Part shown: positions 1 through 64,000 of the stretch, piece after piece
Numbering within the stretch: the first letter of the stretch is position 1
Layout of the letters: each line of letters starts with the position of its first letter
Source of the DNA: Odiellus spinosus
Lineage: Eukaryota; Arthropoda; Arachnida; Opiliones; Phalangiidae
DNA length: 64,000 nt
Assembly (NCBI GenBank): GCA_963920705.1
Contig: CAWUCO010000094.1
Coordinates: forward strand, 310,001-374,000
Direction of reading: 5' to 3'
Notes under the pieces: model-generated
Databases searched by the model: none
Told to the model about the DNA's origin: nothing
The model's input: only the letters and a program-made list of their open reading frames with translations
Position numbers and translations under genes: made by a program

Positions 1-692
1 TTGAAAAACATGGAAAATATGGACAATTCAAAAAACATCTAATATCAAAAAGCGAATTTTGAAAATCTGAAATTTGACTATTTTGATATTGTATGATTTC
101 TTGAATTGGCCATATTTTTCTTGTTTTTCAACGGATTTTTGAAAACTCTTATTATTTAGACTGTCCATTAATTGCTCTTTCGAATGACTTAGGTTTTGTC
201 TAAATTGCAAAATTGTGACAAATATAAAATTGGTTAAAATTAAGCAAAAACGCTAAAAAATCCAAGATTATTGGATTCAAATGGACACAAAACTTTTGAA
301 TTTTAAGCGATTTAGACAAAATTAAGACCACTCGAAAGACCAAATTTTGGTCTATCTAAAAAACAATAGTTTTGGAAAATCCGTTGAAAAACAAGAAAAA
401 TATGGCCAATTCAAGAAATCATACAATATCAAAATAGTCAAATTTCAGATTTTAAAAATTCGCTTTTTGATATTAGATGTTTTTTGAATTGTCCATATTT
501 TCCATGTTTTTCAACGGATTTTCCAAAACTCTTGTTTTTTAGATAGACCAATATTTTCTCTTTCGAGTGGTCTTAATTTTGTCTAAATCGCTTAAAAATC
601 AAAAGTTTTGTGTCCATTTGAATCCAATAATCTTGGATTTTTAAGCGTTTTTGCTTAATTTTAACCAATTTTATATTTGTCACAATTTTGCA

Positions 693-971
693 ATTTAGAC
701 AAAACCAAAGTCATTCGAAAGAGCAATTAATGGACAGTCTAAATAATAAGAGTTTTCAAAAATCCGTTGAAAAACAAGAAAAATATGGCCAATTCAAGAA
801 ATCATACAATATCAAAATAGTCAAATTTCAGATTTTCAAAATTCGCTTTTTGATATTAGATGTTTTTTGAATTGTCCATATTTTCTATGTTTTTCAACGG
901 ATTTTCCAAAACTCTTGTTTTTTAGATAGACCAATATTTGCTCTTTCGAGTGGTCTTAATTTTGTCTAAAT
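693..971. repeat. Core dyad: large imperfect inverted repeat (A-arm/B-arm)
   Basis: The ends are a perfect 12-bp inverted repeat (atttagacaaaa at 693-704, its complement at 960-971). Inside them the A-arm (about 693-790) and the reverse complement of the B-arm (about 873-971) align along most of their length, sharing the words ctcgaaagagcaa/ttcgaaagagcaa, aagagtttt, ccgttgaaaaac and aaaatatgg. The symmetry continues inward to atcaaaa/tttttgat around a short asymmetric centre near 832. Where linkers are in opposite orientations the two arms are both A or both B and the match becomes nearly perfect. The structure resembles a foldback or terminal-inverted-repeat element, but no target-site duplication or transposase is visible. 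Confidence 0.9.
757..784. other. Phased A-tracts in the A-arm
   Basis: Three five-base A-tracts start at 758, 770 and 779, a mean spacing of 10.5 bp, which matches the helical repeat. Such phasing is known to bend DNA. The inverted arm carries T-tracts in the related positions, so each core would have a bend on both sides of its dyad. The motif is repeated in almost every monomer. Confidence 0.5.
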
Positions 972-1075
972 CGCTTAAAAATCAAAAGTTTTGTGTCCAT
1001 TTGAATCCAATAATCTTGGATTTTTAAGCGTTTTGGCTTAATTTTAACCAATTTTATATTTGTCACAATTTTGCA
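972..1075. repeat. Linker with its own inverted repeats
   Basis: The 104-bp linker separates successive core dyads. It contains a perfect 12-bp inverted repeat (cgcttaaaaatc at 972-983 and its complement at 1019-1030) and a short hairpin, aatccaa-taatc-ttggatt (1004-1022). The right third, from the gcttaatt word to ttttgca, has no partner and gives the linker its polarity; it is the landmark used to score F or R. The midpoint of the linker (about 1023.5) is exactly the point about which reversed copies are reflected. Confidence 0.88.
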
Positions 1076-1086
1076 ATTTAGACAAA

Positions 1087-1103
1087 ACCAAAGTCATTCG
1101 AAA
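1087..1103 (-). other. CENP-B-box-like 17-mer in the A-arm
   Basis: Read on the minus strand this is tttcgaatgactttggt. Compared with the mammalian CENP-B box consensus NTTCGNNNNANNCGGGN it keeps TTCG, the central A and the final GG, 7 of the 9 fixed positions, with TT in place of CG. The same 17-mer recurs in nearly every A-arm (for example 704-720 minus strand, 1327-1343 plus strand). The B-arm counterpart lacks the central A and the GG. A 7/9 match can arise by chance and no binding is shown, so this is only a candidate protein site. Confidence 0.35.
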
Positions 1104-2215
1104 GAGCAATTAATGGACAGTCTAAAAAACAATAGTTTTCAAAAATCCGTTGAAAAACAAGAAAAATATGGCCAATTCAAGAAATCATACAATATCAAAA
1201 TAGTCAAATTTCAGATTTTCAAAATTCGCTTTTTGATATTAGATGTTTTTTGAATTGTCCATATTTTCCATGTTTTTCAACGGATTTTTGAAAACTCTTA
1301 TTATTTAAACTGTCCATTAATTGCTCTTTCGAATGACTTTGGTTTTGTCTAAATTGCAAAATTGTGACAAATATAAAATTGGTTAAAATTAAGCAAAAAC
1401 GCTTAAAAATCCAAGATTATTGGATTCAAATGGACACAAAACTTTTGAATTTTAAGCGATTTAGACAAAATTAAGACCACTCGAAAGACCAAATTTTGGT
1501 CTATCTAAAAAACAATAGTTTTGTAAAATCCGTTGAAAAACAAGAAAAATATGGCCAATTCAAGAAATCATACAATATCAAAATAGTCAAATTTCAGATT
1601 TTAAAATTTCGCTTTTTGATATTAGATGTTTTTTGAATTGTCCATATTTTCCATGTTTTTCAACGGATTTTCCAAAACTCTTGTTTTTTAGATAGACCAA
1701 TATTTGCTCTTTCGAGTTATCTTAATTTTGTCTAAATCGCTTAAAATTCAAAAGTTTTGTGTCCATTTGAATCCAATAATCTTGAATTTTTAAGCGTTTT
1801 TGCTTAATTTTTACCAATTTTATATTTGTCACAATTTTGCAATTTAGACAAAACCAAAGTCATTCGAAAGAGCAATTAATGGACAGTCTAAATAATAAGA
1901 GTTTTCAAAAATCCGTTGAAAAACAAGAAAAATATGGCCAATTCAAGAAATCATACAATATCAAAATAGTCAAATTTCAGATTTTCAAAATTCGCTTTTT
2001 GATATTAGATGTTTTTTGAATTGTCCATATTTTCCATGTTTTTCAACGGATTTTCCAAAACTCTTGTTTTTTAGATAGACCAATATTTGCTCTTTCGAGT
2101 GGTCTTAATTTTGTCTAAATCGCTTAAAAATCAAAAGTTTTGTGTCCATTTGAATCCAATAATCTTGGATTTTTAAGCGTTTTTGCTTAATTTTAACCAA
2201 TTTTATATTTGTCAC

Positions 2216-3430
2216 AATTTTGCAATTTAGACAAAACCAAAGTCATTCGAAAGAGCAATTAATGGACAGTCTAAATAATAAGAGTTTTCAAAAATCCGTT
2301 GAAAAACAAGAAAAATATGGCCAATTCAAAAAACATCTAATATCAAAAAGCGAATTTTTAAAATCTGAAATTAGACTATTTTGATATTGTATGATTTCTT
2401 GAATTGGCCATATTTTTCTTGTTTTTCAACGGATTTTTGAAAACTCTTATTATTAGACTGTCCATTAATTGCTCTTTCGAATGACTTTGGTTTTGTCTAA
2501 ATTGCAAAATTGTGACAAATATAAAATTGGTTAAAATTAAGCAAAAACGCTTAAAAATTAAAGATTATTGGATTCAAATGGACACAAAACTTTTGAATTT
2601 TAAGCGATTCAGACAAAATTAAGACCACTCGAAAGACCAAATTTTGGTCTATCTAAAAAATAATAGTTTTCAAAAATCCGTTGAAAAACAAGAAAAATAT
2701 GGTCAATTCAAGAAATCATACAATATCAAAATAGTCAAATTTCAGATTTTCAAAATTCGCTTTTTGATATTAGATGTTTTTTGAATTGTCCATATTTTCC
2801 ATGTTTTTCAACGGATTTTCCAAAACTCTTGTTTTTTAGATAGACCAATATTTGCTCTTTCGAGTGGTCTTAATTTTGTCTAAATCGCTTAAAAATCAAA
2901 AGTTTTGTGTCCATTTGAATCCAATATTCTTGGATTTTTAAGCGTTTTTGCTTAATTTTAACCAATTTTATATTTGTCACAATTTTGCAATTTAGACAAA
3001 ACCAAAGTCATTCGAAAGAGCAATTAATGGACAGTCTAAATAATAAGAGTTTTCAAAAATCCGTTGAAAAACAAGAAAAATATGGCCAATTCAAAAAACA
3101 TCTAATATCAAAAAGCGAATTTTTAAAATCTGAAATTTGACTATTTTGATATTGTATGATTTCTTGAATTGGCCATATTTTTCTTGTTTTTCAACGGATT
3201 TTTGAAAACTCTTATTATTAGACTGTCCATTAATTGCTCTTTCGAATGACTTTGGTTTTGTCTAAATTGCAAAATTGTGACAAATATAAAATTGGTTAAA
3301 ATTAAGCAAAAACGCTTAAAAATTAAAGATTATTGGATTCAAATGGACACAAAACTTTTGAATTTTAAGCGATTCAGACAAAATTAAGACCACTCGAAAG
3401 ACCAAATTTTGGTCTATCTAAAAAGAATAG
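2216..3430. repeat. Two-monomer (F R) tandem duplication, ~765 bp
   Basis: Private variants recur with a 765-bp shift: a lost T in cttattattagac (2446 and 3211), cttaaaaattaaag (about 2550 and 3315) and gcgattcagac (about 2604 and 3369). The second copy ends near 3421, where the B'-arm sequence changes. This marks a recent unequal exchange of two units. Confidence 0.82.
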
Positions 3431-5654
3431 TTTTGGAAAATCCGTTGAAAAACAAGAAAAATATGGACAATTCAAAAAACATCTAATATCAAAAAGCGAA
3501 TTTTGAAAATCTGAAATTTGACTATTTTGATATTGTATGATTTCTTGAATTGGCCATATTTTTCTTGTTTTTCAACGGATTTTCCAAACCTATTGTTTTT
3601 TAGATAGACCAATATTTGCTCTTTCGAGTGGTCTTAATTTTGTCTAAATCGCTTAAAAATCAAAAGTTTTGTGTCCATTTGAATCCAATAATCTTGGATT
3701 TTTAAGCGTTTTTGCTTAATTTTAACCAATTTTATATTTGTCACAATTTTGCAATTGAGACAAAACCAAAGTCATTCGCAAGAGCAATTAATGGACAGTC
3801 TAAATAATAAGAGTTTTCAAAAATCCGTTGAAAAACAAGAAAAATATGGCCAATTCAAGAAATCATAGAATATCAAAATAGTCAAATTTCAGATTTTCAA
3901 AATTCGCTTTTTGATATTAGATGTTTTTTGAATTGTCCATATTTTCCATGTTTTTCAACGGATTTTTGAAAACTCTTATTATTTAAACTGTCCATTAATT
4001 GCTCTTTCGAATGACTTTGGTTTTGTCTAAATTGCAAAATTGTGACAAATATAAAATTGGTTAAAATTAAGCAAAAACGCTTAAAAATCCAAGATTATTG
4101 GATTCAAATGGACACAAAACTTTTGATTTTTAAGCGATTTAGACAAAATTAAGACCACTCGAAAGAGCAAATATTGGTCTATCTAAAAAACAAGAGTTTT
4201 GGAAAATCCGTTGAAAAACATGGAAAATATGGACTATTCAAAAAGCATCTAATATCAAAAAGCGAATTTTGAAAATCTGAAATTTGACTATTTTGATATT
4301 GTATGATTTCTTGAATTGGCCATATTTTTCTTGTTTTTCAACGGATTTTCCAAAACTATTGTTTTTTAGATAGACCAAAATTTGGTCTTTCGAGTGGTCT
4401 TAATTTTGTCTAAATCGCTTAAAATTCAAAAGTTTTGTGTCCATTTGAATCCAATAATCTTGGATTTTTAAGCGTTTTTGCTTAATTTTAACCAATTTTA
4501 TATTTGTCACAATTTTGCAATTTAGACAAAACCAAAGTCATTCGAAAGAGCAATTAATGGACAGTTTAAATAATAAGAGTTTTCAAAAATCCGTTGAAAA
4601 ACAAGAAAAATATGGCCAATTCAAAAAACATCTAATATCAAAAAGCGAATTTTTAAAATCTGAAATTTGACTATTTTGATATTGTATGATTTCTTGAATT
4701 GGCCATATTTTTCTTGTTTTTCAACGGATTTTTGAAAACTCTTATTATTTAGACTGTCCATTAATTGCTCTTTCGAATGACTTTGGTTTTGTCTAAATTG
4801 CAAAATTGTGACAAATATAAAATTGGTTAAAATTAAGCAAAAACGCTTAAAAATCCAAGATTATTGGATTCAAATGGACACAAAACTTTTGAATTTTAAG
4901 CGATTTAGACAAAATTAAGACCACTCGAAAGACCAAATTTTGGTCTATCTAAAAAACAATAGTTTTGGAAAATCCGTTGAAAAACAAGAAAAATATGGCC
5001 AATTCAAGAAATCATACAATATCAAAATAGTCAAATTTCAGATTTTCAAAATTCGCTTTTTGATATTAGATGTTTTTTGAATTGTCCATATTTTCCATGT
5101 TTTTCAACGGATTTTTGAAAACTCTTATTATTTAAACTGTCCATTAATTGCTCTTTCGAATGACTTTGGTTTTGTCTAAATTGCAAAATTGTGACAAATA
5201 TAAAATTGGTTAAAATTAAGCAAAAACGCTTAAAAATCCAAGATTATTGGATTCAAATGGACACAAAACTTTTGAATTTTAAGCGATTTAGACAAAATTA
5301 AGACCACTCGAAAGACCAAATTTTGGTCTATCTAAAAAACAATAGTTTTGGAAAATCCGTTGAAAAACAAGAAAAATATGGCCAATTCAAGAAATCATAC
5401 AATATCAAAATAGTCAAATTTCAGATTTTCAAAATTCGCTTTTTGATATTAGATGCTTTTTGAATAGTCCATATTTTCCATGTTTTTCAACGGATTTTCC
5501 AAAACTCTTGTTTTTTAGATAGACCAATATTTGCTCTTTCGAGTGGTCTTAATTTTGTCTAAATCGCTTAAAAATCAAAAGTTTTGTGTCCATTTGAATC
5601 CAATAATCTTGGATTTTTAAGCGTTTTTGCTTAATTTTAACCAATTTTATATTT
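3431..5654. repeat. Mixed tract F R F RR
   Basis: Landmarks lie near 3740 (F), 4040 (R), 4506 (F), 4805 (R), 5189 (R) and 5655 (F). Opposed neighbours give palindromic cores near 3890, 4270 and 4655. The core beginning near 4605 has the caagaaaaatatggcc outer motif on both sides, so the palindrome there is close to exact. Nothing else is seen in this stretch. Confidence 0.88.
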
Positions 5655-6900
5655 GTCACAATTTTGCAATTTAGACAAAACCAAAGTCATTCGAAAGAGC
5701 AATTAATGGACAGTTTAAATAATAAGAGTTTTCAAAAATCCGTTGAAAAACATGGAAAATATGGACAATTCAAAAAACATCTAATATCAAAAAGCGAATT
5801 TTGAAAATCTGAAATTTGACTATTTTGATATTGTATGATTTCTTGAATTGGCCATATTTTTCTTGTTTTTAAACGGATTTTCCAAAACTATTGTTTTTTA
5901 GATAGACCAAAATTTGGTCTTTCGAGTGGTCTTAATTTTGTCTAAATCGCTTAAAATTCAAAAGTTTTGTGTCCATTTGAATCCAATAATCTTGGATTTT
6001 TAAGCGTTTTTGCTTAATTTTAACCAATTTTATATTTGTCACAATTTTGCAATTTAGACAAAACCAAAGTCATTCGAAAGAGCAATTAATGGACAGTTTA
6101 AATAATAAGAGTTTTCAAAAATCCGTTGAAAAACATGGAAAATATGGACAATTCAAAAAACATCTAATATCAAAAAGCGAATTTTGAAAATCTGAAATTT
6201 GACTATTTTGATATTGTATGATTTCTTGAATTGGCCATATTTTTCTTGTTTTTCAACGGATTTTCCAAAACTATTGTTTTTTAGATAGACCAAAATTTGG
6301 TCTTTCGAGTGGTCTTAATTTTGTCTAAATCGCTTAAAATTCAATAGTTTTGTGTCCATTTGAATCCAATAATCTTGGATTTTTAAGCGTTTTTGCTTAA
6401 TTTTAACCAATTTTATATTTGTCACAATTTTGCAATTTAGACAAAACCAAAGTCATTCGAAAGAGCAATTAATGGACAGTTTAAATAATAAGAGTTTTCA
6501 AAAATCCGTTGAAAAACATGGAAAATATGGACAATTCAAAAAACATCTAATATCAAAAAGCGAATTTTGAAAATCTGAAATTTGACTATTTTGATATTGT
6601 ATGATTTCTTGAATTGGAAATATTTTTCTTGTTTTTCAACGGATTTTTGAAAACTATTGTTTTTTAGATAGACCAAAATTTGGTCTTTCGAGTGGTCTTA
6701 ATTTTGTCTAAATCGCTTAAAATTCAAAAGTTTTGTGTACATTTGAATCCAATAATCTTGGATTTTTAAGCGTTTTTGCTTAATTTTAACCAATTTTATA
6801 TTTGTCACAATTTTGCAATTTAGACAAAACCAAAGTTATTCGAAAGAGCAATTAATGGACAGTCTAAATAATAAGAGTTTTCAAAAATCCGTTGAAAAAC
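5655..6900 (+). repeat. Four consecutive F monomers
   Basis: Landmarks at 5655, 6038, 6421 and 6804 are each 383 bp apart. The first core carries the variant tttttaaacgg (about 5867), which recurs at 10,461, 15,055 and 18,887. The first two of these intervals are 4,594 bp, the period of the large higher-order repeat downstream, so this tract looks like an older remnant of that repeat. Confidence 0.85.
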
Positions 6901-6918
6901 ATGGAAAATATGGACAAT

Positions 6919-8450
6919 TCAAAAAACATCTAATATCAAAAAGCGAATTTTGAAAATCTGAAATTTGACTATTTTGATATTGTATGATTTCTTGAATTGG
7001 CCATATTTTTCTTGTTTTTCAACGGATTTTTGAAAACTCTTATTATTTAGACTGTCCATTAATTGCTCTTTCGAATGACTTTGGTTTTGTCTAAATTGCA
7101 AAATTGTGACAAATATAAAATTGGTTAAAATTAAGCAAAAACGCTTAAAAATTCAAGATTATTGGATTCAAATGGACACAAAACTTTTGAATTTTAAGCG
7201 ATTTAGACAAAATTAAGATAACTCGAAAGAGCAAATATTGGTCTATCTAAAAAACAAGAGTTTTGGAAAATCCGTTGAAAAACATGGAAAATATGTACAA
7301 TTCAAAAAACATCTAATATCAAAAAGCGAATTTTTAAAATCTGAAATTTGACTATTTTCATATTGTATGATTTCTTGAATTGGCCATATTTTTCTTGTTT
7401 TTCAACGGATTTTTGAAAACTATTGTTTTTTAGATAGACCAAAATTTGGTCTTTCGAGTGGTCTTAATTTTGTCTAAATCGCTTAAAATTCAAAAGTTTT
7501 GTGTCCATTTGAATCCAATAATCTTGGATTTTTAAGCGTTTTTGCTTAATTTTAACCAATTTTATATTTGTCACAATTTTGCAATTTAGACAAAACCAAA
7601 GTCATTCGAAAGAGCAATTAATGGACAGTTTAAATAATAAGAGTTTTCAAAAATCCGTTGAAAAACATGGAAAATATGGACAATTCAAAAAACATCTAAT
7701 ATCAAAAAGCGAATTTTGAAAATCTGAAATTTGACTATTTTGATATTGTATGATTTCTTGAATTGGCCATATTTTTCTTGTTTTTCAACGGATTTTTGAA
7801 AACTCTTATTATTTAGACTGTCCATTAATTGCTCTTTCGAATGACTTTGGTTTTGTCTAAATTGCAAAATTGTGACAAATTTAAAATTGGTTAAAATTAA
7901 GCAAAAACGCTTAAAAATTCAAGATTATTGGATTCAAATGGACACAAAACTTTTGAATTTTAAGCGATTTAGACAAAATTAAGATAACTCGAAAGAGCAA
8001 ATATTGGTCTATCTAAAAAACAAGAGTTTTGGAAAATCCGTTGAAAAACATGGAAAATATGTACAATTCAAAAAACATCTAATATCAAAAAGCGAATTTT
8101 TAAAATCTGAAATTTGACTATTTTGATATTGTATGATTTCTTGAATTGGCCATATTTTTCTTGTTTTTCAACGGATTTTTGAAAACTATTGTTTTTTAGA
8201 TAGACCAAAATTTGGTCTTTCGAGTGGTCTTAATTTTGTCTAAATCGCTTAAAATTCAAAAGTTTTGTGTCCATTTGAATCCAATAATCTTGGATTTTTA
8301 AGCGTTTTTGCTTAATTTTAACCAATTTTATATTTGTCACAATTTTGCAATTTAGACAAAACCAAAGTCATTCGAAAGAGCAATTAATGGACAGTTTAAA
8401 TAATAAGAGTTTTCAAAAATCCGTTGAAAAACATGGAAAATATGGACAAT
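6919..8450. repeat. Two-monomer (R F) tandem repeat, 766 bp x 2
   Basis: Copies 6919-7684 and 7685-8450 match with a 766-bp shift, including the private change tgtacaattc (about 7294 and 8060) and a B'-arm with agataactcg. Single differences, such as acaaatttaaa in the second copy (about 7876) and ttttcatattg in the first, show slight divergence since the duplication. Confidence 0.82.
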
Positions 8451-10346: not shown

Positions 10347-11129
10347 TGGAAAATATGGACAATTCAAAAAACATCTAATATCAAAAAGCGAATTTTGAAA
10401 ATCTGAAATTTGACTATTTTGATATTGTATGATTTCTTGAATTGGCCATATTTTTCTTGTTTTTAAACGGATTTTCCAAAACTATTGTTTTTTAGATAGA
10501 CCAAAATTTGGTCTTTCGAGTGGTCTTAATTTTGTCTAAATCGCTTAAAATTCAAAAGTTTTGTGTCCATTTGAATCCAATAATCTTGGATTTTTAAGCG
10601 TTTTTGCTTAATTTTAACCAATTTTATATTTGTCACAATTTTGCAATTTAGACAAAACCAAAGTCATTCGAAAGAGCAATTAATGGACAGTTTAAATAAT
10701 AAGAGTTTTCAAAAATCCGTTGAAAAACATGGAAAATATGGACAATTCAAAAAACATCTAATATCAAAAAGCGAATTTTGAAAATCTGAAATTTGACTAT
10801 TTTGATATTGTATGATTTCTTGAATTGGCCATATTTTTCTTGTTTTTCAACGGATTTTCCAAAACTATTGTTTTTTAGATAGACCAAAATTTGGTCTTTC
10901 GAGTGGTCTTAATTTTGTCTAAATCGCTTAAAATTCAAAAGTTTTGTGTCCATTTGAATCCAATAATCTTGGATTTTTAAGCGTTTTTGCTTAATTTTAA
11001 CCAATTTTATATTTGTCACAATTTTGCAATTTAGACAAAACCAAAGTCATTCGAAAGAGCAATTAATGGACAGTCTAAATAATAAGAGTTTTCAAAAATC
11101 CGTTGAAAAACAAGAAAAATATGGCCAAT
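10347..11129 (+). repeat. F monomers leading into the large higher-order repeat
   Basis: F landmarks lie at 10632 and 11015. The tract matches about 5750-6590 upstream and 14,941-15,723 downstream, each with a 4,594-bp shift. It is therefore the tail of a truncated copy of the repeat that begins at 11,130. About 8,430-11,130 corresponds to 13,020-15,720. Confidence 0.8.
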
Positions 11130-36821: not shown

Positions 36822-38323
36822 ATTTTCAAATTCGCTTTTTGATATTAGATGTTTTTTGAATTGTCCATATTTTCCATGTTTTTCAACGGATTTTCCAAAA
36901 CTCTTGTTTTTTAGATAGACCAATATTTGCTCTTTCGAGTGGTCTTAATTTTGTCTAAATCGCTTAAAAATCAAAAGTTTTGTGTCCATTTGAATCCAAT
37001 AATCTTGGATTTTTAAGCGTTTTTGCTTAATTTTAACCAATTTTATATTTGTCACAATTTTGCAATTTAGACAAAACCACAGTCATTCGAAAGAGCAATT
37101 AATGGACAGTCTAAATAATAAGAGTTTTCAAAAATCCGTTGAAAAACAAGAAAAATATGGCCAATTCAAGAAATCATAGAATATCAAAATAGTCAAATTT
37201 CAGATTTTCAAAATTCGCTTTTTGATATTAGATGTTTTTTGAATTGTCCATATTTTCCATGTTTTTAGATAGACCAAAATTTGGTCTTTCGAGTGGTCTT
37301 AATTTTGTCTAAATCGCTTAAAATTCAAAAGTTTTGTGTCCATTTGAATCCAATAATCTTGGATTTTTAAGCGTTTTTGCTTAATTTTAACCAATTTTAT
37401 ATTTGTCACAATTTTGCAATTTAGACAAAACCAAAGTCATTCGAAAGAGCAATTAATGGACAGTCTAAATAATAAGAGTTTTCAAAAATCCGTTGAAAAA
37501 CCAGAAAAATATGGCCAATTCAAGAAATCATAGAATATCAAAATAGTCAAATTTCAGATTTTCAAAATTCGCTTTTTGATATTAGATGTTTTTTGAATTG
37601 TCCATATTTTCCATGTTTTTCAACGGATTTTCCAAAACTCTTGTTTTTTAGATAGACCAATATTTGCTCTTTCGAGTGGTCTTAATTTTGTCTAAATCGT
37701 TTAAAAATCAAAAGTTTTGTGTCCATTTGAATCCAATAATCTTGGATTTTTAAGCGTTTTTGCTTAATTTTAACCAATTTTATATTTGTCACAATTTTGC
37801 AATTTAGACAAAACCAAAGTCATTCGAAAGAGCAATTAATGGACAGTCTAAATAATAAGAGTTTTCAAAAATCCGTTGAAAAACAAGAAAAATATGGCCA
37901 ATTCAAGAAATCATAGAATATCAAAATAGTCAAATTTCAGATTTTCAAAATTCGCTTTTTGATATTAGATGTTTTTTGAATTGTCCATATTTTCCATGTT
38001 TTTCAACGGATTTTTGAAAACTCTTATTATTTAAACTGTCCATTAATTGCTCTTTCGAATGACTTTGGTTTTGTCTAAATTGCAAAATTGTGACAAATAT
38101 AAAATTGGTTAAAATTAAGCAAAAACGCTTAAAAATCCAAGATTATTGGATTCAAATGGACACAAAACTTTTGAATTTTAAGCGATTTAGACAAAATTAA
38201 GACCACTCGAAAGACCAAATTTTAGTCTATCTAAAAAACAATACTTTTCAAAAATCCGTTGAAAAACATGGAAAATATGGACAATTCAAGAAATCATAGA
38301 ATATCAAAATAGTCAAATTTCAG
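36822..38323. repeat. 1,502-bp higher-order repeat, copy 1 (FFF R)
   Basis: Four monomers minus 29 bp. Landmarks 37051, 37405 and 37788 (F) and 38089 (R) recur exactly 1,502 bp later. Diagnostic words are ttttcaaattcgc with one A missing, ccagaaaaatatgg, caatacttttc and the deletion junction at 37,261. One difference is accacagtc at about 37,077, against accaaagtc in copy 2. Confidence 0.88.
37258..37272 (+). other. 29-bp deletion junction in the B-arm (F)
   Basis: The usual B-arm has two gttttt words 29 bp apart. Here only one remains, so catgttttt joins directly to agatagacc. Landmark spacing falls to 354 bp (37,051 to 37,405). The pattern fits slippage or recombination between the short direct repeats. 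An identical junction lies at 38,758-38,772. Confidence 0.88.
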
Positions 38324-39825
38324 ATTTTCAAATTCGCTTTTTGATATTAGATGTTTTTTGAATTGTCCATATTTTCCATGTTTTTCAACGGATTTTCCAA
38401 AACTCTTGTTTTTTAGATAGACCAATATTTGCTCTTTCGAGTGGTCTTAATTTTGTCTAAATCGCTTAAAAATCAAAAGTTTTGTGTCCATTTGAATCCA
38501 ATAATCTTGGATTTTTAAGCGTTTTTGCTTAATTTTAACCAATTTTATATTTGTCACAATTTTGCAATTTAGACAAAACCAAAGTCATTCGAAAGAGCAA
38601 TTAATGGACAGTCTAAATAATAAGAGTTTTCAAAAATCCGTTGAAAAACAAGAAAAATATGGCCAATTCAAGAAATCATAGAATATCAAAATAGTCAAAT
38701 TTCAGATTTTCAAAATTCGCTTTTTGATATTAGATGTTTTTTGAATTGTCCATATTTTCCATGTTTTTAGATAGACCAAAATTTGGTCTTTCGAGTGGTC
38801 TTAATTTTGTCTAAATCGCTTAAAATTCAAAAGTTTTGTGTCCATTTGAATCCAATAATCTTGGATTTTTAAGCGTTTTTGCTTAATTTTAACCAATTTT
38901 ATATTTGTCACAATTTTGCAATTTAGACAAAACCAAAGTCATTCGAAAGAGCAATTAATGGACAGTCTAAATAATAAGAGTTTTCAAAAATCCGTTGAAA
39001 AACCAGAAAAATATGGCCAATTCAAGAAATCATAGAATATCAAAATAGTCAAATTTCAGATTTTCAAAATTCGCTTTTTGATATTAGATGTTTTTTGAAT
39101 TGTCCATATTTTCCATGTTTTTCAACGGATTTTCCAAAGCTCTTGTTTTTTAGATAGACCAATATTTGCTCTTTCGAGTGGTCTTAATTTTGTCTAAATC
39201 GTTTAAAAATCAAAAGTTTTGTGTCCATTTGAATCCAATAATCTTGGATTTTTAAGCGTTTTTGCTTAATTTTAACCAATTTTATATTTGTCACAATTTT
39301 GCAATTTAGACAAAACCAAAGTCATTCGAAAGAGCAATTAATGGACAGTCTAAATAATAAGAGTTTTCAAAAATCCGTTGAAAAACAAGAAAAATATGGC
39401 CAATTCAAGAAATCATAGAATATCAAAATAGTCAAATTTCAGATTTTCAAAATTCGCTTTTTGATATTAGATGTTTTTTGAATTGTCCATATTTTCCATG
39501 TTTTTCAACGGATTTTTGAAAACTCTTATTATTTAAACTGTCCATTAATTGCTCTTTCGAATGACTTTGGTTTTGTCTAAATTGCAAAATTGTGACAAAT
39601 ATAAAATTGGTTAAAATTAAGCAAAAACGCTTAAAAATCCAAGATTATTGGATTCAAATGGACACAAAACTTTTGAATTTTAAGCGATTTAGACAAAATT
39701 AAGACCACTCGAAAGACCAAATTTTAGTCTATCTAAAAAACAATACTTTTCAAAAATCCGTTGAAAAACATGGAAAATATGGACAATTCAAGAAATCATA
39801 GAATATCAAAATAGTCAAATTTCAG
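38324..39825. repeat. 1,502-bp higher-order repeat, copy 2 (FFF R)
   Basis: It matches the preceding 1,502 bp with very few changes (for example ccaaagctc near 39,137). Landmarks are 38553, 38907 and 39290 (F) and 39591 (R). It carries the same 29-bp deletion at 38,763, so the deletion came before the duplication. Confidence 0.88.
38758..38772 (+). other. 29-bp deletion junction, second copy (F)
   Basis: Same junction as at 37,258, carried by the second 1,502-bp unit. Landmark spacing is again 354 bp (38,553 to 38,907). Confidence 0.87.
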
Positions 39826-49033: not shown

Positions 49034-49289
49034 TTTCTTGAATTGGCCATATTTTTCTGGTTTTTCAACGGATTTTTGAAAACTCTTATTATTTAGACTG
49101 TCCATTAATTGCTCTTTCGAATGACTTTGGTTTTGTCTAAATTGCAAAATTGTGACAAATATAAAATTGGTTAAAATTAAGCAAAAACGCTTAAAAATCC
49201 AAGATTATTGGATTCAAATGGACACAAAACTTTTGAATTTTAAGCGATTTAGACAAAATTAAGACCACTCGAAAGACCAAATTTTGGTC

Positions 49290-49305
49290 TATCTAAAAAC
49301 ATGGA
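49290..49305 (-). other. 29-bp deletion junction in the B'-arm (R)
   Basis: Here tctaaaaacatgg replaces the normal sequence with two aaaaac words. Reverse-complemented, it equals the junction at 37,258 and 38,758. The same junction recurs at 50,026-50,041. It removes 29 bp and keeps one direct repeat. Confidence 0.87.
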
Positions 49306-50025
49306 AAATATGGACAATTCAAAAAACATCTAATATCAAAAAGCGAATTTTGAAAATCTGAAATTTGACTATTTTGATATTCTATGATTTCTTGAATTGG
49401 CCATATTTTTCTTGTTTTTCAACGGATTTTTGAAAACTCTTATTATTTAGACTGTCCATTAATTGCTCTTTCGAATGACTGTGGTTTTGTCTAAATTGCA
49501 AAATTGTGACAAATATAAAATTGGTTAAAATTAAGCAAAAACGCTTAAAAATCCAAGATTATTGGATTCAAATGGACACAAAACTTTTGATTTTTAAGCG
49601 ATTTAGACAAAATTAAGACCTCTCGAAAGAGCAAATATTGGTCTATCTAAAAAACAAGAGTTTTGGAAAATCCGTTGAAAAACATGGAAAATATGGACAA
49701 TTCAAAAAACATCTAATATCAAAAAGCGAATTTGAAAATCTGAAATTTGACTATTTTGATATTCTATGATTTCTTGAATTGGCCATATTTTTCTGGTTTT
49801 TCAACGGATTTTTGAAAACTCTTATTATTTAGACTGTCCATTAATTGCTCTTTCGAATGACTTTGGTTTTGTCTAAATTGCAAAATTGTGACAAATATAA
49901 AATTGGTTAAAATTAAGCAAAAACGCTTAAAAATCCAAGATTATTGGATTCAAATGGACACAAAACTTTTGAATTTTAAGCGATTTAGACAAAATTAAGA
50001 CCACTCGAAAGACCAAATTTTGGTC

Positions 50026-50041
50026 TATCTAAAAACATGGA
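50026..50041 (-). other. 29-bp deletion junction, second R copy
   Basis: Identical to the junction at 49,290, one ~736-bp period later. A separate 3-bp loss lies at about 50,388 (tctaaaaaaagag). Confidence 0.86.
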
Positions 50042-50889
50042 AAATATGGACAATTCAAAAAACATCTAATATCAAAAAGCGAATTTTGAAAATCTGAAAT
50101 TTGACTATTTTGATATTCTATGATTTCTTGAATTGGCCATATTTTTCTTGTTTTTCAACGGATTTTTGATAACTCTTATTATTTAGACTGTCCATTAATT
50201 GCTCTTTCGAATGACTGTGGTTTTGTCTAAATTGCAAAATTGTGACAAATATAAAATTGGTTAAAATTAAGCAAAAACGCTTAAAAATCCAAGATTATTG
50301 GATTCAAATGGACACAAAACTTTTGATTTTTAAGCGATTTAGACAAAATTAAGACCACTCGAAAGAGCAAATATTGGTCTATCTAAAAAAAGAGTTTTGG
50401 AAAATCCGTTGAAAAACATGGAAAATATGGACAATTCAAAAAACATCTAATATCAAAAAGCGAATTTGAAAATCTGAAATTTGACTATTTTGATATTCTA
50501 TGATTTCTTGAATTGGCCATATTTTTCTGGTTTTTCAACGGATTTTTGAAAACTCTTATTATTTAGACTGTCCATTAATTGCTCTTTCGAATGACTTTGG
50601 TTTTGTCTAAATTGCAAAATTGTGACAAATATAAAATTGGTTAAAATTAAGCAAAAACGCTTAAAAATCCAAGATTATTGGATTCAAATGGACACAAAAC
50701 TTTTGAATTTTAAGCGATTTAGACAAAATTAAGACCACTCGAAAGACCAAATTTTGGTCTATCTAAAAAACAATAGTTTTGGAAAATCCGTTGAAAAACA
50801 TGGAAAATATGGACAATTCAAAAAACATCTAATATCAAAAAGCGAATTTTGAAAATCTGAAATTTGACTATTTTGATATTCTATGATTT

Positions 50890-54528: not shown

Positions 54529-56059
54529 GTCACAATTTTGCAATTTAGACAAAACCAAAGTCATTCGAAAGAGCAATTAATGGACAGTCTAAATAATAAG
54601 AGTTTTCAAAAATCCGTTGAAAAACAAGAAAAATATGGCCAATTCAAGAAATCATACAATATCAAAATAGTCAAATTTCAGATTTTAAAAATACGCTTTT
54701 TGAAATTAGATGTTTTTTGAATTGGCCATATTTTTCTTGTTTTTCAACGGATTTTTGAAAACTCTTATTATTTAGACTGTCCATTAATTGCTCTTTCGAA
54801 TGACTTTGGTTTTGTCTAAATTGCAAAATTGTGACAAATATAAAATTGGTTAAAATTAAGCAAAAACGCTTAAAAATCCAAGATTATTGGATTCAAATGG
54901 ACACAAAACTTTTGAATTTTAAGCGATTTAGACAAAATTAAGACCACTCGAAAGACCAAATTTTGGTCTATCTAAAAAACAATACTTTTCAAAAATCCGT
55001 TGAAAAACATGGAAAATATGGACAATTCAAGAAATCATAGAATATCAAAATAGTCAAATTTCAGATTTTCAAAATTCGCTTTTTGATATTAGATGTTTTT
55101 TGAATTGTCCATATTTTCCATGTTTTTCAACGGATTTTCCAAAACTTTTGTTTTTTAGATAGACCAATATTAGCTCTTTCGAGTGGTCTTAATTTTGTCT
55201 AAATCGCTTAAAAATCAAAAGTTTTGTGTCCATTTGAATCCAATAATCTTGGATTTTTAAGCGTTTTTGCTTAATTTTAACCAATTTTATATTTGTCACA
55301 ATTTTGCAATTTAGACAAAACCAAAGTCATTCGAAAGAGCAATTAATGGACAGTCTAAATAATAAGAGTTTTCAAAAATCCGTTGAAAATCAAGAAAATA
55401 TGGCCAATTCAAGAAATCATAGAATATCAAAATAGTCAAATTTCAGATTTTCAAAATTCGCTTTTTGATATTAGATGTTTTTTGAATTGTCCATATTTTC
55501 CATGTTTTTCAACGGATTTTTGAAAACTCTTATTATTTAAACTGTCCATTAATTGCTCTTTCGAATGACTTTGGTTTTGTCTAAATTGCAAAATTGTGAC
55601 AAATATAAAATTGGTTAAAATTAAGCAAAAACGCTTAAAAATCCAAGATTATTGGATTCAAATGGACACAAAACTTTTGAATTTTAAGCGATTTAGACAA
55701 AATTAAGACCACTCGAAAGACCAAATTTTGGTCTATCTAAAAAACAATAGTTTTCAAAAATCCGTTGAAAAACAAGAAAAATATGGCCAATTCAACAAAT
55801 CATACAATATCAAAATAGTCAAATTTCAGATTTTCAAAATTCGCTTTTTGATACTAGATGTTTTTTGAATTGTCCATATTTTCCATGTTTTTCAACGGAT
55901 TTTCCAAAACTATTGTTTTTTAGATAGACCAAAATTTGGTCTTTCGAGTGGTCTTAATTTTGTCTAAATCGCTTAAAATTCAAAAGTTTTGTGTCCATTT
56001 GAATCCAATAATCTTGGATTTTTAAGCGTTTTTGCTTAATTTTAACCAATTTTATATTT
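54529..56059. repeat. 1,531-bp repeat, tandem copy 2 (F R F R)
   Basis: Nearly identical to its neighbours. It shares gatactagatg (54,321 and 55,852) with the following unit. The alternation makes each core axis here the centre of an extended inverted repeat. Confidence 0.88.
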
Positions 56060-56830
56060 GTCACAATTTTGCAATTTAGACAAAACCAAAGTCATTCGAA
56101 AGAGCAATTAATGGACAGTCTAAATAATAAGAGTTTTCAAAAATCCGTTGAAAAACAAGAAAAATATGGCCAATTCAAGAAATCATACAATATCAAAATA
56201 GTCAAATTTCAGATTTTAAAAATACGCTTTTTGAAATTAGATGTTTTTTGAATTGGCCATATTTTTCTTGTTTTTCAACGGATTTTTGAAAACTCTTATT
56301 ATTTAGACTGTCCATTAATTGCTCTTTCGAATGACTTTGGTTTTGTCTAAATTGCAAAATTGTGACAAATATAAAATTGGTTAAAATTAAGCAAAAACGC
56401 TTAAAAATCCAAGATTATTGGATTCAAATGGACACAAAACTTTTGAATTTTAAGCGATTTAGACAAAATTAAGACCACTCGAAAGACCAAATTTTGGTCT
56501 ATCTAAAAAACAATACTTTTCAAAAATCCGTTGAAAAACATGGAAAATATGGACAATTCAAGAAATCATAGAATATCAAAATAGTCAAATTTCAGATTTT
56601 CAAAATTCGCTTTTTGATATTAGATGTTTTTTGAATTGTCCATATTTTCCATGTTTTTCAACGGATTTTCCAAAACTTTTGTTTTTTAGATAGACCAATA
56701 TTAGCTCTTTCGAGTGGTCTTAATTTTGTCTAAATCGCTTAAAAATCAAAAGTTTTGTGTCCATTTGAATCCAATAATCTTGGATTTTTAAGCGTTTTTG
56801 CTTAATTTTAACCAATTTTATATTTGTCAC
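56060..56830. repeat. 1,531-bp repeat, partial copy 3 (F R, to F)
   Basis: It carries aaaatacgctttttgaaatt (about 56,219), caatacttttc and accaatattagctc (about 56,695), then diverges after the F landmark at 56,826 into the unit with tccaaattttcc. Confidence 0.84.
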
Positions 56831-59800
56831 AATTTTGCAATTTAGACAAAACCAAAGTCATTCGAAAGAGCAATTAATGGACAGTCTAAATAATAAGAGT
56901 TTTCAAAAATCCGTTGAAAAACAAGAAAAATATGGCCAATTCAAGAAATCATACAATATCAAAATAGTCAAATTTCAGATTTTCAAAATTCGCTTTTTGA
57001 TATTAGATGTTTTTTGAATTGTCCAAATTTTCCATGTTTTTCAATGGATTTTCCAAAACTCTTGTTTTTTAGATAGACCAATATGTGCTCTTTCGAGTGG
57101 TCTTATTTTGTCTAAATCGCTTAAAAATCAAAAGTTTTGTGTCCATTTGAATCATATAATCTTGGATTTTTAAGCGTTTTTGCTTAATTTTAACCAATTT
57201 TATATTTGTCACAATTTTGCAATTTAGACAAAACCAAAGTCATTCGAAAGAGCAATTAATGGACAGTCTAAATAATAAGAGTTTTCAAAAATCCGTTGAA
57301 AAACAAGAAAAATATGGCCAATTCAAGAAATCATAGAATATCAAAATAGTCAGATTTCAGATTTTCAAAATTCGCTTTTTGATATTAGATGTTTTTTGAA
57401 TTGTCCATATTTTCCATGTTTTTCAACGGATTTTTGAAAACTCTTATTATTTAAACTGTCCATTAATTGCTCTTTCGAATGACTTTGGTTTTGTCTAAAT
57501 TGCAAAATTGTGACAAATATAAAATTGGTTAAAATTAAGCAAAAACGCTTAAAAATCCAAGATTATTGGATTCAAATGGACACAAAACTTTTGATTTTTA
57601 AGCGATTTAGACAAAATTAAGACCACTCGAAAGACCAAATTTTGGTCTATCTAAAAAACAATAGTTTTGGAAAATCCGTTGAAAAACAAGAAAAATATGG
57701 CCAATTCAAGAAATCATAGAATATCAAAATAGTCAAATTTCAGATTTTCAAAATTCGCTTTTTGATATTAGATGTTTTTTGAATTGTCCATATTTTCCAT
57801 GTTTTTCAACGGATTTTTGAAAACTCTTATTATTTAAACTGTCCATTAATTGCTCTTTCGAATGACTTTGGTTTTGTCTAAATTGCAAAATTGTGACAAA
57901 TATAAAATTGGTTAAAATTAAGCAAAAACGCTTAAAAATCCAAGATTATTGGATTCAAATGGACACAAAACTTTTGAATTTTAAGCGATTTAGACAAAAT
58001 TAAGACCACTCGAAAGACCAAATTTTGGTCTATCTAAAAAACAATAGTTTTCAAAAATCCGTTGAAAAACAAGAAAAATATGGCCAATTCAAGAAATCAT
58101 ACAATATCAAAATAGTCAAATTTCAGATTTTCAAAATTCGCTTTTTGATATTAGATGTTTTTTGAATTGTCCATATTTTCCATGTTTTTCAACGGATTTT
58201 CCAAAACTCTTGTTTTTTAGATAGACCAATATTTGCTCTTTCGAGTGGTCTTAATTTTGTCTAAATCGCTTAAAATTCAAAAGTTTTGTGTCCATTTGAA
58301 TCCAATAATCTTGGATTTTTAAGCGTTTTTGCTTAATTTTAACCAATTTTATATTTGTCACAATTTTGCAATTTAGACAAAACCAAAGTCATTCGAAAGA
58401 GCAATTAATGGACAGTCTAAATAATAAGAGTTTTCAAAAATCCGTTGAAAAACAAGAAAAATATGGCCAATTCAAGAAATCATAGAATATCAAAATAGTC
58501 AAATTTCAGATTTTCAAAATTCGCTTTTTGATATTAGATGTTTTTGAATTGTCCATTTTTTCCATGTTTTTCAACGGATTTTTGAAAACTCTTATTATTT
58601 AAACTGTCCATTAATTGCTCTTTCGAATGACTTTGGTTTTGTATAAATTGCAAAATTGTGACAAATATAAAATTGGTTAAAATTAAGCAAAAACGCTTAA
58701 AAATCAAAGATTATTGGATTCAAATGGACATAAAACTTTTGATTTTTAAGCGATTTAGACAAAATTAAGACCACTCGAAAGAGCAAATATTGGTCTATCT
58801 GAAAATCAAGAGTTTTGGAAAATCCGTTGAAAAACATGGAAAATATGGACAATTCAAAAAACATCTAATATCAATAAGCGAATTTTGAAAATCTGAAATT
58901 TGACTATTTTGATATTCTATGATTTCTTGAATTGGCCATATTTTTCTTGTTTTTCAACGGATTTTTGAAAACTCTTATTATTTAGACTGTCCATTAATTG
59001 CTCTTTCGAATGACTTTGGTTTTGTCTAAATTGCAAAATTGTGACAAATATAAAATTGGTTAAAATTAAGCAAAAACGCTTAAAAATCCAAGATTATTGG
59101 ATTCAAATGGACACAAAACTTTTGAATTTTAAGCGATTTAGACAAAATTAAGACCACTCGAAAGACCAAATTTTGGTCTATCTAAAAAACAATAGTTTTC
59201 AAAAATCCGTTGAAAAACAAGAAAAATATGGCCAATTCAAGAAATCATACAATATCAAAATAGTCAAATTTCAGATTTTCAAAATTCGCTTTTTGATATT
59301 AGATGTTTTTTGAATTGTCCATATTTTCCATGTTTTCAACGGATTTTCCAAAACTCTTATTTTTTAGATAGACCAAAATTTGGTCTTTCGAGTGGTCTTA
59401 ATTTTGTCTAAATCGCTTAAAATTCAAAAGTTTTGTGTCCATTTGAATCCAATAATCTTGGATTTTTAAGCGTTTTTGCTTAATTTTAACCAATTTTATA
59501 TTTGTCACAATTTTGCAATTTAGACAAAACCAAAGTCATTCGAAAGAGCAATTAATGGACAGTCTAAATAATAAGAGTTTTCAAAAATCCGTTGAAAAAC
59601 AAGAAAAATATGGCCAATTCAAGAAATCATACAATATCAAAATAGTCAAATTTCATATTTTAAAAATTCGCTTTTTGATATTAGATGTTTTTTGAATTGG
59701 CCATATTTTTCTTGTTTTTCAACGGATTTTTGAAAACTCTTATTATTTAGACTGTCCATTAATTGCTCTTTCGAATGACTTTGGTTTTGTCTAAATTGCA

Positions 59801-62267
59801 AAATTGTGACAAATATAAAATTGGTTAAAATTAAGCAAAAACGCTTAAAAATCCAAGATTATTGGATTCAAATGGACACAAAACTTTTGATTTTTAAGCG
59901 ATTTAGACAAAATTAAGACCACTCGAAAGAGCAAATATTGGTCTATCTGAAAATCAAGAGTTTTGGAAAATCCGTTGAAAAACATGGAAAATATGGACAA
60001 TTCAAAAAACATCTAATATCAAAAAGCGAATTTTGAAAATCTGAAATTTGACTATTTTGATATTCTATGATTTCTTGAATTGGCCATATTTTTCTTGTTT
60101 TTCAACGGATTTTCCAAAACTATTGTTTTTTAGATAGACCAAAATTTGGTCTTTCGAGTGGTCTTAATTTTGTCTAAATCGCTTAAAATTCAAAAGTTTT
60201 GTGTCCATTTGAATCCAATAATATTGGATTTTTAAGCGTTTTTGCTTAATTTTAACCAATTTTATATTTGTCACAATTTTGCAATTTAGACAAAACCAAA
60301 GTCATTCGAAAGAGCAATTAATGGACAGTTTAAATAATAAGAGTTTTCAAAAATCCGTTGAAAAACATGGAAAATATGGACAATTCAAAAAACATCTAAT
60401 ATCAAAAAGCGAATTTTGAAAATCTGAAATTTGACTATTTTGATATTGTATGATTTCTTGAATTGGCCATATTTTTCTTGTTTTTCAACGGATTTTCCAA
60501 AACTATTGTTTTTTAGATAGACCAAAATTTGGTCTTTCGAGTGGTCTTAATTTTGTCTAAATCGCTTAAAATTCAAAAGTTTTGTGTCCATTTGAATCCA
60601 ATAATCTTGGATTTTTAAGCGTTTTTGCTTAATTTTAACCAATTTTATATTTGTCACAATTTTGCAATTTAGACAAAACCAAAGTCATTCGAAAGAGCAA
60701 TTAATGGACAGTTTAAATAATAAGAGTTTTCAAAAATCCGTTGAAAAACATGGAAAATATGGACAATTCAAAAAACATCTAATATCAAAAAGCGAATTTT
60801 GAAAATCTGAAATTTGACTATTTTGATATTCTATGATTTCTTGAATTGGCCATATTTTTCTTGTTTTTCAACGGATTTTTGAAAACTCTTATTATTTAGA
60901 CTGTCCATTAATTGCTCTTTCGAATGACTTTGGTTTTGTCTAAATTGCAAAATTGTGATAAATATAAAATTGGTTAAAATTAAGCAAAAACGCTTAAAAA
61001 TCCAAGATTATTGGATTCAATTGGACACAAAACTTTTGAATTTTAAGCGATTTAGACAAAATTAAGACCACTCGAAAGACCAAATTTTGGTCTATCTAAA
61101 AAACAATAGTTTTGGAAAATCCGTTGAAAAACAAGAAAAATATGGCCAATTCAAGAAATCATACAATATCAAAAAAGTCAAATTTCAGATTTTAAAAATT
61201 CGCTTTTTGATATTAGATGTTTTTTGAATTGTCCATATTTTCCATGTTTTTCAACGGATTTTCCAAAACTCTTGTTTTTTAGATAGACCAAAATTTGGTC
61301 TTTCGAGTGGTCTTAATTTTGTCTAAATCGCTTAAAATTCAAAAGTTTTGTGTCCATTTGAATCCAATAATCTTGGATTTTTAAGCGTTTTTGCTTAATT
61401 TTAACCAATTTTATATTTGTCACAATTTTGCAATTTAGACAAAACCAAAGTCATTCGAAAGAGCAATTAATGGACAGTTTAAATAATAAGAGTTTTCAAA
61501 AATCCGTTGAAAAACATGGAAAATATGGACAATTCAAAAAACATCTAATATCAAAAAGCGAATTTTGAAAATCTGAAATTTGACTATTTTGATATTGTAT
61601 GATTTCTTGAATTGGCCATATTTTTCTTGTTTTTCAACGGATTTTCCAAAACTATTGTTTTTTAGATAGACCAAAATTTGGTCTTTCGAGTTGTCTTAAT
61701 TTTGTCTAAATCGCTTAAAATTCAAAAGTTTTGTGTCCATTTGAATCCAATAATTTGGATTTTTAAGCGTTTTTGCTTAATTTTAACCAATTTTATATTT
61801 GTCACAATTTTGCAATTTAGACAAAACCAAAGTCATTCGAAAGAGCAATTAATGGACAGTCTAAATAATAAGAGTTTTCCAAAATCCGTTGAAAAACAAG
61901 AAAAATATGGCCAATTCAAAAAACATCTAATATCAAAAAGCGAATTTTGAAAATCTGAAATTTGACTATTTTGATATTGTATGATTTCTTGAATTGGCCA
62001 TATTTTTCTTGTTTTTCAACGGATTTTTGAAAACTCTTATTATTTAGACTGTCCATTAATTGCTCTTTCGAATGACTTTGGTTTTGTCTAAATTGCAAAA
62101 TTGTGACAAATATAAAATTGGTTAAAATTAAGCAAAAACGCTTAAAAATCCAAGATTATTGGATTCAAATGGACACAAAACTTTTGAATTTTAAGCGATT
62201 TAGACAAAATTAAGACCACTCGAAAGACCAAATTTTGGTCTATCTAAAAAACAATAGTTTTGGAAAA
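56831..62267. repeat. Mixed right tract F RR F RR F R FF R FF R
   Basis: Landmarks: 57208 F, 57509 R, 57892 R, 58358 F, 58658 R, 59038 R, 59504 F, 59804 R, 60270 F, 60653 F, 60953 R, 61419 F, 61801 F and 62101 R. The unit at 57,020-57,155 matches 40,250-40,390. B'-arms at 58,792 and 59,940 carry tctgaaaatcaagag. From about 60 kb the units resemble those of 4-11 kb (acagttt A-arms, accaaaatttggtc B-arms). No gene is seen. Confidence 0.83.
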
Positions 62268-62667
62268 TCCGTTGAAAAACAAGAAAAATATGGCCAATTC
62301 AAGAAATCATACAATATCAAAATAGTCAAATTTCAGATTTTAAAAATTCGCTTTTTGATATTAGATGTTTTTTGAATTGTCCATATTTTCCATGTTTTTC
62401 AACGGATTTTCCAAAACTCTTGTTTTTTAGATAGACCAATATTTGCTCTTTCGAGTGGTCTTAATTGGTCCGTTGAAAAACAAGAAAAATATGGCCAATT
62501 CAAGAAATCATACAATATCAAAATAGTCAAATTTCAGATTTTAAAAATTCGCTTTTTGATATTAGATGTTTTTTGAATTGTCCATATTTTCCATGTTTTT
62601 CAACGGATTTTCCAAAACTCTTGTTTTTTAGATAGACCAATATTTGCTCTTTCGAGTGGTCTTAATT
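62268..62667 (+). repeat. 201-bp off-register direct duplication of a core
   Basis: 62,268-62,466 is repeated at 62,469-62,667 with no difference that I can see. It is joined by two extra bases (gg, 62,467-62,468) so that ttaatt runs into ggtccgttg. The copied piece runs from the inner left arm through the core centre into the B-arm. R-to-F landmark spacing rises from 466 to 667 bp (62,101 to 62,768), shifting all later units by 201 bp. It is the only large register break in the window. Confidence 0.92.
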
Positions 62668-64000
62668 TTGTCTAAATCGCTTAAAAATCAAAAGTTTTGT
62701 GTCCATTTGAATCCAATAATCTTGGATTTTTAAGCGTTTTTGCTTTATTTTAACCAATTTTATATTTGTCACACTTTTGCAATTTAGACAAAACCAAAGT
62801 CATTCGAAAGAGCAATTAATGTACAGTTTAAATAATAAGAGTTTTCAAAAATCCGTTGAAAAACATGGAAAATATGGACAATTCAAAAAACATCTAATAT
62901 CAAAAAGCGAATTTTTAAAATCTGAAATTTGACTATTTTGATATTGTATGATTTCTTGAATTGGCCATATTTTTCTTGTTTTTCAACGGATTTTTGAAAA
63001 TTATTGTTTTTTAGATAGACCAAAATTTGGTCTTTCGAGTGGTCTTAATTTTGTCTAAATCGCTTAAAATTCAAAAGTTTTGTGTCCATTTGAATCCAAT
63101 AATCTTGGATTTTTAAGCGTTTTTGCTTAATTTTAACCAATTTTATATTTGTCACAATTTTGCAATTTAGACAAATCCAAAGTCATTCGAAAGAGCAATT
63201 AATGGACAGTCTAAATAATAAGAGTTTTCAAAAATCCGTTGAAAAACAAGAAAAATATGGCCAATTCAAGAAATCATACAATATCAAAATAGTCAAATTT
63301 CAGATTTTAAAAATTCGCTTTTTGATATTAGATGTTTTTTGAATTGGCCATATTTTTCTTGTTTTTCAACGGATTTTTGAAAACTCTTATTATTTAGACT
63401 GTCCATTAATTGCTCTTTCGAATGACTTTGGTTTTGTCTAAATTGCAAAATTGTGACAAATATAAAATTGGTTAAAATTAATTAAAAACGCTTAAAAATC
63501 CAAGATTATTGGATTCAAATGGACACAAAACTTTTGATTTTTAAGCGATTTAGACAAAATTAGGACCACTCGAAAGAGCAAATATTGGTCTATCTGAAAA
63601 TCAAGAGTTTTGGAAAATCCGTTGAAAAACATGGAAAATATGGACAATTCAAAAAACATCTAATATCAAAAAGCGAATTTTGAAAATCTGAAATTTGACT
63701 ATTTTGATATTCTATGATTTCTTGAATTGGCCATATTTTTCTTGTTTTTCAACGGATTTTTGAAAACTCTTATTATTTAGACTGTCCATTAATTGCTCTT
63801 TCGAATGACTTTGGTTTTGTCTAAATTGCAAAATTGTGACAAATATAAAATTGGTTAAAATTAAGCAAAACGCTTAAAATCCAAGATTATTGGATTCAAA
63901 TGGACACAAAACTTTTGAATTTTAAGCGATTTAGACAAAATTAAGACCACTCGAAAGACCAAATTTTGGTCTATCTAAAAAACAATAGTTTTGGAAAATC
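62668..64000. repeat. Right end of window: FF RR
   Basis: Landmarks lie at 62768 F, 63151 F, 63451 R and 63834 R. Small private changes include cacacttttgc (62,771), aattaattaaaaacg (about 63,478) and two lost A residues near 63,870-63,880. The array runs off the end inside a B'-arm. Confidence 0.88.

Follow-up and report, generated by a model that had tools for sequence, protein, structure and literature searches.

The stretch of DNA analysed here, which we call the window, is 64,000 bases long (C104:310001-374000, from an assembly of 443 Mb in 286 contigs) and is occupied from end to end by one satellite, with a period of 383 bp, 162.6 copies and a G+C content of 26-27%. It is a long array of similar tandem units, as expected of a tandem satellite, but a scrambled one (positions 1..64000, no strand assigned), with 168 A cores and 167 B cores, A (141 bp) and B (242 bp) being the two fold-back modules that make up the 383-bp repeat. 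The 18-bp motif AAAATCCGTTGAAAAACA, taken from the consensus, stands inverted at both A-B joints, and because these 18 bases are common to both joints, modules can be placed either way round in phase and all four types of junction are in phase. When ATCCGTTGAAAAAC and its complement serve as anchors for the module split, A modules (139-141 bp) and B modules (240-243 bp) alternate along the window; looser end anchors (4 mismatches) were discarded, as they split B modules in two. Both modules are imperfect inverted repeats (consensus against its own reverse complement, about 0.81 for A and 0.64-0.67 for B), and individual modules are about 98% identical to their own consensus. We folded one example of each as single-stranded DNA and compared it with shuffled sequence: the 141-bp A module at 762..902 (+ strand) gave -38.3 kcal/mol against a shuffle mean of -11.2 (z = -12.4), and the 242-bp B module at 520..761 (+ strand), which contains the linker described in an earlier note on this DNA, gave -42.5 against -18.4 kcal/mol (z = -7.5).

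Five irregular intervals in the window have a module end missing, four of 354 bp and one of 60 bp, and intervals of this kind were left out of the counts (5 in the window and, among the further loci described below, 3 in L019, 1 in L025 and 2 in L031). The 354-bp units, 29 bp short with one module end lost, lie at 37134-37488, 38636-38990, 49074-49428 and 49810-50164 and occur as two same-strand pairs. The 60-bp interval, at 62408..62467 (no strand assigned; core markers and end anchors), is a reduced B module that leaves two A modules nearly in contact, and a perfect 201-bp tandem duplication (62268-62667) surrounds it.

The earlier note had reported that the satellite units reverse direction more often than in random order, and a 28-base B-core marker gave us the same counts: 91 forward and 76 reverse, with 112 of 166 neighbours opposed (56 +-, 56 -+) against 82.8 expected switches (runs test z = +4.6). 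Its claim that each flip is a reflection which keeps phase, with no bases lost or gained, is borne out as well, in that B-marker spacings in the window are mirror-symmetric about 383 bp (345/383/421, 317/383/449 and 242/383/524 for three usable markers; a fourth, with two matching places per unit, was unusable), and the 300/383/466 found before is the same geometry. Reflection about the B midpoint is the right reading of these spacings. Dense, in-phase reversal therefore stands, but the whole 383-bp repeat is not the unit that reverses: the 242-bp B module flips, the 141-bp A module flips separately, and phase is kept because the repeat has two reversible modules with matching ends. The A-core in the window counts 84 forward and 84 reverse, with switches at 56 of 167 neighbouring pairs, fewer than in random order (z = -4.3).

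Scrambling of this kind extends well beyond the window. We examined 20 further 10-kb stretches, a sample that is not random, since 19 were chosen at listed matches to a probe from the window and the remaining one, L036 on C6, lies clear of all such matches. Seventeen of them, on nine contigs (C6, C27, C59, C100, C104, C112, C130, C157 and C256), are scrambled, with B switches at 265 of 426 and A switches at 288 of 427 neighbours. The other three (L023 on C66, L033 on C228 and L035 on C261) are head-to-tail, each with 0/25 B and 0/25 A switches. The consensus modules of the two kinds of array are nearly alike, with a few sites that differ. Sampling along C6 met the satellite at seven points between base 1 and 3.4 Mb, and no satellite at 3.6, 4 or 12 Mb. 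On C261 (6.2 Mb) it was present at 15 of 15 sparsely sampled points from 10 kb to 6.23 Mb (L035, L041-L043 and L045-L055); 13 of these are uniform over the short stretch seen, with directions that differ between points, and a reversal point lies in each of the other two, L043 and L050. From the 39576 exact B-right-end junction matches alone, the satellite amounts to at least 15 Mb, or 3.4% of the assembly. Six contigs have sizes in exact thousands (C66, 356000; C100, 678000; C112, 2288000; C130, 452000; C228, 141000; C261, 6235000), suggesting cuts made in curation.

Mitochondrial-like sequence was also seen in the assembly. COX1 reads in the invertebrate mitochondrial code, and COX2 begins directly after its stop codon, which marks the source as an invertebrate animal. 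It may well be an arthropod, and the lack of a tRNA-Leu gene between COX1 and COX2 appears to set it apart from Tribolium beetles. Contig C17 (L010-L016) holds several COX1-like pieces, some with identical scores as if repeated, and these are probably nuclear copies of mitochondrial DNA.

With the ends of A named AL and AR and those of B named BL and BR, the canonical junctions are AR-BL (as in the sequence at 506..545, + strand) and AL-BR, and the inverted ones AL-BL and AR-BR. The window has 80 AR-BL, 75 AL-BR, 82 AL-BL and 82 AR-BR junctions, and the 17 scrambled loci have 232, 234, 188 and 183 respectively; the equal numbers of the two inverted types are not evidence, because geometry forces them. 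The alleles beside the junctions are informative. We compared 582 B left ends, taken from the window and from the 17 loci together: column 11 of B is A at 251 of 270 AL-BL junctions against 21 of 312 canonical ones, and this founder allele is present at 82/82 AL-BL junctions in the window, for example at 351..400 (+ strand), where it reads CAATAGTTTTGG. A founder allele at B column 219 is seen at the AR-BR junction at 1272..1320 (+ strand), where it reads TTTAAACTGTCC. Genome-wide, counting perfect matches only and scoring as canonical any AR-BR junction with the exchange inside the A arm, the column-11 founder base is found at 7041 of 7853 AL-BL junctions (812 without) against 393 of 28368 canonical ones (27975 without; exact 43-base matches), and the column-219 base at 5673 of 6011 AR-BR junctions (338 without) against 731 of 33565 canonical ones (32834 without; exact 47-base matches). 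The odds ratios between founder base and inverted junction are 617 and 754, and backward-read control patterns had 0 matches in all eight counts. It is the totals of these matches that enter the analysis, since strand order is listed for the first places only. Density of reversal, then, is not to be read as so many separate flips of one unit, as had been proposed: most inverted junctions carry founder alleles across the genome (90% of exact AL-BL and 94% of exact AR-BR matches), and because they share founder haplotypes the orientation counts are not independent events. The roughly 10% of AL-BL and 6% of AR-BR matches that have no founder base could be new flips.

On the main AL-BL haplotype, the allele difference between AL-BL and canonical ends shrinks with distance from the junction on both sides, from 0.86 at B column 11 through 0.75, 0.74 and 0.53 at columns 32, 38 and 78, and from 0.56 to 0.22 at columns 45 and 75 of A. 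The decay is not smooth: B columns 3 and 4 (0.19), 15 (0.32) and 20 (0.28) are all nearer the junction than column 32. The variants at columns 15 and 20 occur at 92 and 91 of 312 canonical ends against 1 and 2 of 270 AL-BL ends, and those at columns 3 and 4, present in about a fifth of AL-BL ends, mark a subgroup within AL-BL. Linkage that falls away from the junctions suggests exchange after founding. Judged from sequence, the founder alleles look derived, because all 13 full B modules of the dispersed elements discussed below lack them (three elements, on C1, C3 and C4, whose copies are 97-99% alike and so not independent), and because the three head-to-tail loci have C at column 219 in 75/75 B ends and C at column 11 in 74/75. 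There is more than one founder, since the reversal point at L050, in the mostly uniform contig C261, is an AL-BL junction without the founder allele, and since a second AR-BR class, with the exchange inside the A arm, makes up 80 of 265. Near the inverted junction, the founder AL-BL haplotype replaces AGACCAATATTTGCTCT by AGACCAAAATTTGGTCT, which is a perfect inverted repeat of 8 bp around one spacer base.

The best reading of these data, and in our judgement a probable one, is that a few founder inversions were spread and reshuffled by recombination between inverted modules. Arrays would have been head-to-tail at the start, and a few old exchanges at the shared module ends, or slightly inside the A arms, would have created AL-BL and AR-BR junctions. 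With both orientations present, homologous recombination between opposed copies could then have shuffled and spread the modules across many arrays, a crossover inverting the stretch between the two copies, with conversion and unequal exchange copying it. Presumably no site-specific enzyme took part in these steps. The A arms, which we told apart by six marker sites, carry a trace that fits exchange between oppositely directed modules: a single arm carries the opposite arm's type in 81 of 434 modules from the 17 loci (2 unclassified) and 35 of 163 from the window, 116 of 597 together, and the three head-to-tail loci show this in 0 of 78. Read by eye, the reversal point at L043 on C261 likewise has a swapped A arm, with the exchange inside the arm.

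Alternatively, each module might flip in place repeatedly through its own hairpin or cruciform, by template switching or through exchange between the arms of that one module. Chloroplast DNA offers a parallel to such flipping in its small inversions associated with hairpins; both modules fold strongly, phase is kept, and B flips between same-way neighbours are in excess in the window (54 against 42 expected). Yet these in-place flips are too few in the other 17 loci (46 for B and 55 for A, against 82 expected for each under independence), and in the window those of A are in deficit (26 against 43). Exchange between a module's own arms would leave modules with both arms swapped, and there are 0 of these among 597 A modules, which weighs weakly against the idea, as 3.6 were expected (1.9 for the 17 loci and 1.7 for the window). 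It is on the founder alleles, present at 90% and 94% of exact inverted matches, that we set pure in-place flipping aside as an improbable account of the arrays.

A few scrambled higher-order blocks might instead have been amplified with little further inversion. The earlier note had remarked that some copies are duplicates, and near-identical B-A-B stretches are indeed found in the window. We collapsed its 156 B-A-B stretches, 111 of them opposed, by single linkage, and the opposed clusters numbered 58 of 92 at 99.5% identity, 41 of 60 at 99%, 17 of 30 at 98.5% and 4 of 11 at 98%; at the last two levels most copies lump together, the largest clusters holding more than 40 stretches each. Close duplication thus does not remove the excess of switches, and looser collapsing does. 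The founder alleles common to many junctions, the local duplicates and the reduction to 11 clusters at 98% would all suit amplified blocks. So would the spacing of inverted junctions, which in the 17 loci is more regular than a geometric law, collapsed or not: runs of 0 to 4 canonical junctions between inverted ones number 101/135/82/22/6 against a geometric 155/86/48/27/15, and, after collapsing copies and with the window included, 66/98/63/23/9 distinct runs against 112/65/37/21/12 expected. The window on its own has about as many runs of 0 and 1 as chance would give (80 against 82, 35 against 40) and more runs of 2 (35 against 19). Most blocks between inverted junctions are 1-3 modules long (318 of 350 for the 17 loci, 150 of 159 for the window). 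Against amplified blocks, 60 distinct stretches are left among the 156 at 99% identity, the fall of linkage away from junctions suggests exchange after founding, and no dominant period appears in the window at lags 1-25, where B pairs that share both their direction and at least 99.5% identity never make up more than 12%. Higher-order satellites have a multimer period, with identity between multimers above that within them; what the window holds is local duplicates. Amplification with little later inversion is therefore unlikely to be the main source of the scrambled order.

The canonical AL-BR junction also occurs, among the matches listed, in small isolated clusters on C1, C2 (two), C3 and C4, and the same units thereby raise a possible link between a transposon and the satellite. 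We read the sequence on C1 (L060, L062 and L063), C3 (L059) and C4 (L061, L064 and L065) and placed the C2 pair by marker pattern. Foldback transposons are a family with long inverted ends that hold tandem repeats, and the copy of about 4.86 kb at C1:33019596-33024457 is, by sequence comparison, built in this way, with inverted ends of 1756 aligned bp, 99.3% alike, that contain 149-bp and 383-bp tandem units; this applies to the dispersed copies only. The 9-bp repeat GACCTTCTC, a candidate target-site duplication, stands on both flanks of the C1 copy, and by eye no clear flank repeat is seen at the C4 copy. In the dispersed elements the 383-bp units lie beside 149-bp repeats with G-runs, and their modules on C1, C3 and C4 match the consensus used at 92-96% (full B) and 96-98% (A). 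Such an element, with units head-to-tail within each arm and inverted between arms (on C1, C3 and C4, and for the two on C2 by marker pattern), might be taken for the direct source of the reversals. However, the central joins of the three elements read are irregular, unlike the in-phase junctions of the arrays, their full B modules carry the canonical alleles, and two markers of the elements occur neither in the window nor in the 20 loci, so that we regard a direct Foldback source as very unlikely. Least likely of all, to the point of being hardly credible, is an assembly artefact, for although the exact-thousand sizes of several satellite contigs hint at manual cuts, in-phase reversals recur at intervals of a few hundred bases across 17 loci, spread over 9 contigs, uniform arrays coexist in the same assembly and the junction alleles are consistent genome-wide.

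The reading that we prefer, founder inversions reshuffled by recombination, was also put into a toy simulation, which shows that an array can become filled with inverted junctions from one founder by homologous exchange. This was seldom the outcome under neutrality: of 300 runs, 2 finished with more than 30% inverted junctions and 214 with none. The founder allele was fully linked in those two runs, as the design of the model dictates, with every exchange set at a module centre. The simulated spacings of inverted junctions are near-geometric and do not reproduce the regularity of the 17 loci, whose real runs are too regular; the shape of the founder block, biased exchange or selection could be its source. 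It is conceivable, and we say this tentatively, that orientation drifts freely between hairpin-forming blocks with interchangeable ends, yet reversals are held about two modules apart by selection or biased recombination, so that the order of orientations is partly maintained. Such maintenance could come from selection acting on chromatin or on the secondary structure of the DNA, or from bias in a step of recombination.

Satellites are commonly taken to run head-to-tail, and the value of this genome is that uniform and scrambled arrays of nearly one and the same unit occur in it together. A limited search of the open-licence literature found no description of sub-monomer modules that reverse independently. 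With Foldback transposons the C1 copy shares its 1.75-kb inverted ends with tandem repeats, and the 9-bp repeat on its flanks may be a further likeness; the array in the window is not such an element. The closest published case that we found is that of the macro-dyad satellites TmSat1 and TmSat2 of Tribolium madens (PMC13081366), where kilobase subarrays alternate in direction and the inversion sites are about 98-99% conserved; its authors state that macro-dyad arrays are documented exclusively in Tribolium. Common to both systems are an abundant satellite, internal dyad symmetry (in TmSat2 there), arrays in opposite orientations, and a conserved, site-specific sequence at the inversion sites (INV_1a, INV_1b and INV_2 there; here the founder alleles at AL-BL and AR-BR, which are distinct from ordinary units). 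Contig C261, so far as its sparse samples go, resembles the long alternating blocks of the Tribolium type. The differences lie in scale and in freedom of arrangement. Kilobase subarrays flip in T. madens, whereas here two sub-monomer modules do so independently every few hundred bases, and in the window and the 17 loci the blocks are mostly of 1-3 modules rather than opposed multi-kilobase subarrays, predominantly two per array. A further difference is that here each of the four types of A-B junction is common, with uniform arrays of almost identical sequence alongside. Long inverted repeats within the monomer are cited there for the satellites of T. brevicornis (1061 bp) and Trichogramma brassicae (385 bp), the latter similar in length to the 383-bp unit here. 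The same source argues that the dyad organisation of arrays matters in Tribolium pericentromeres (PMC13081366). In the arrays described here the junction alleles trace the origin and the spread of inversions. They form a natural record of how inverted repeats recombine within a satellite, and the system offers a test of whether the dyad organisation of arrays is selected or drifting.
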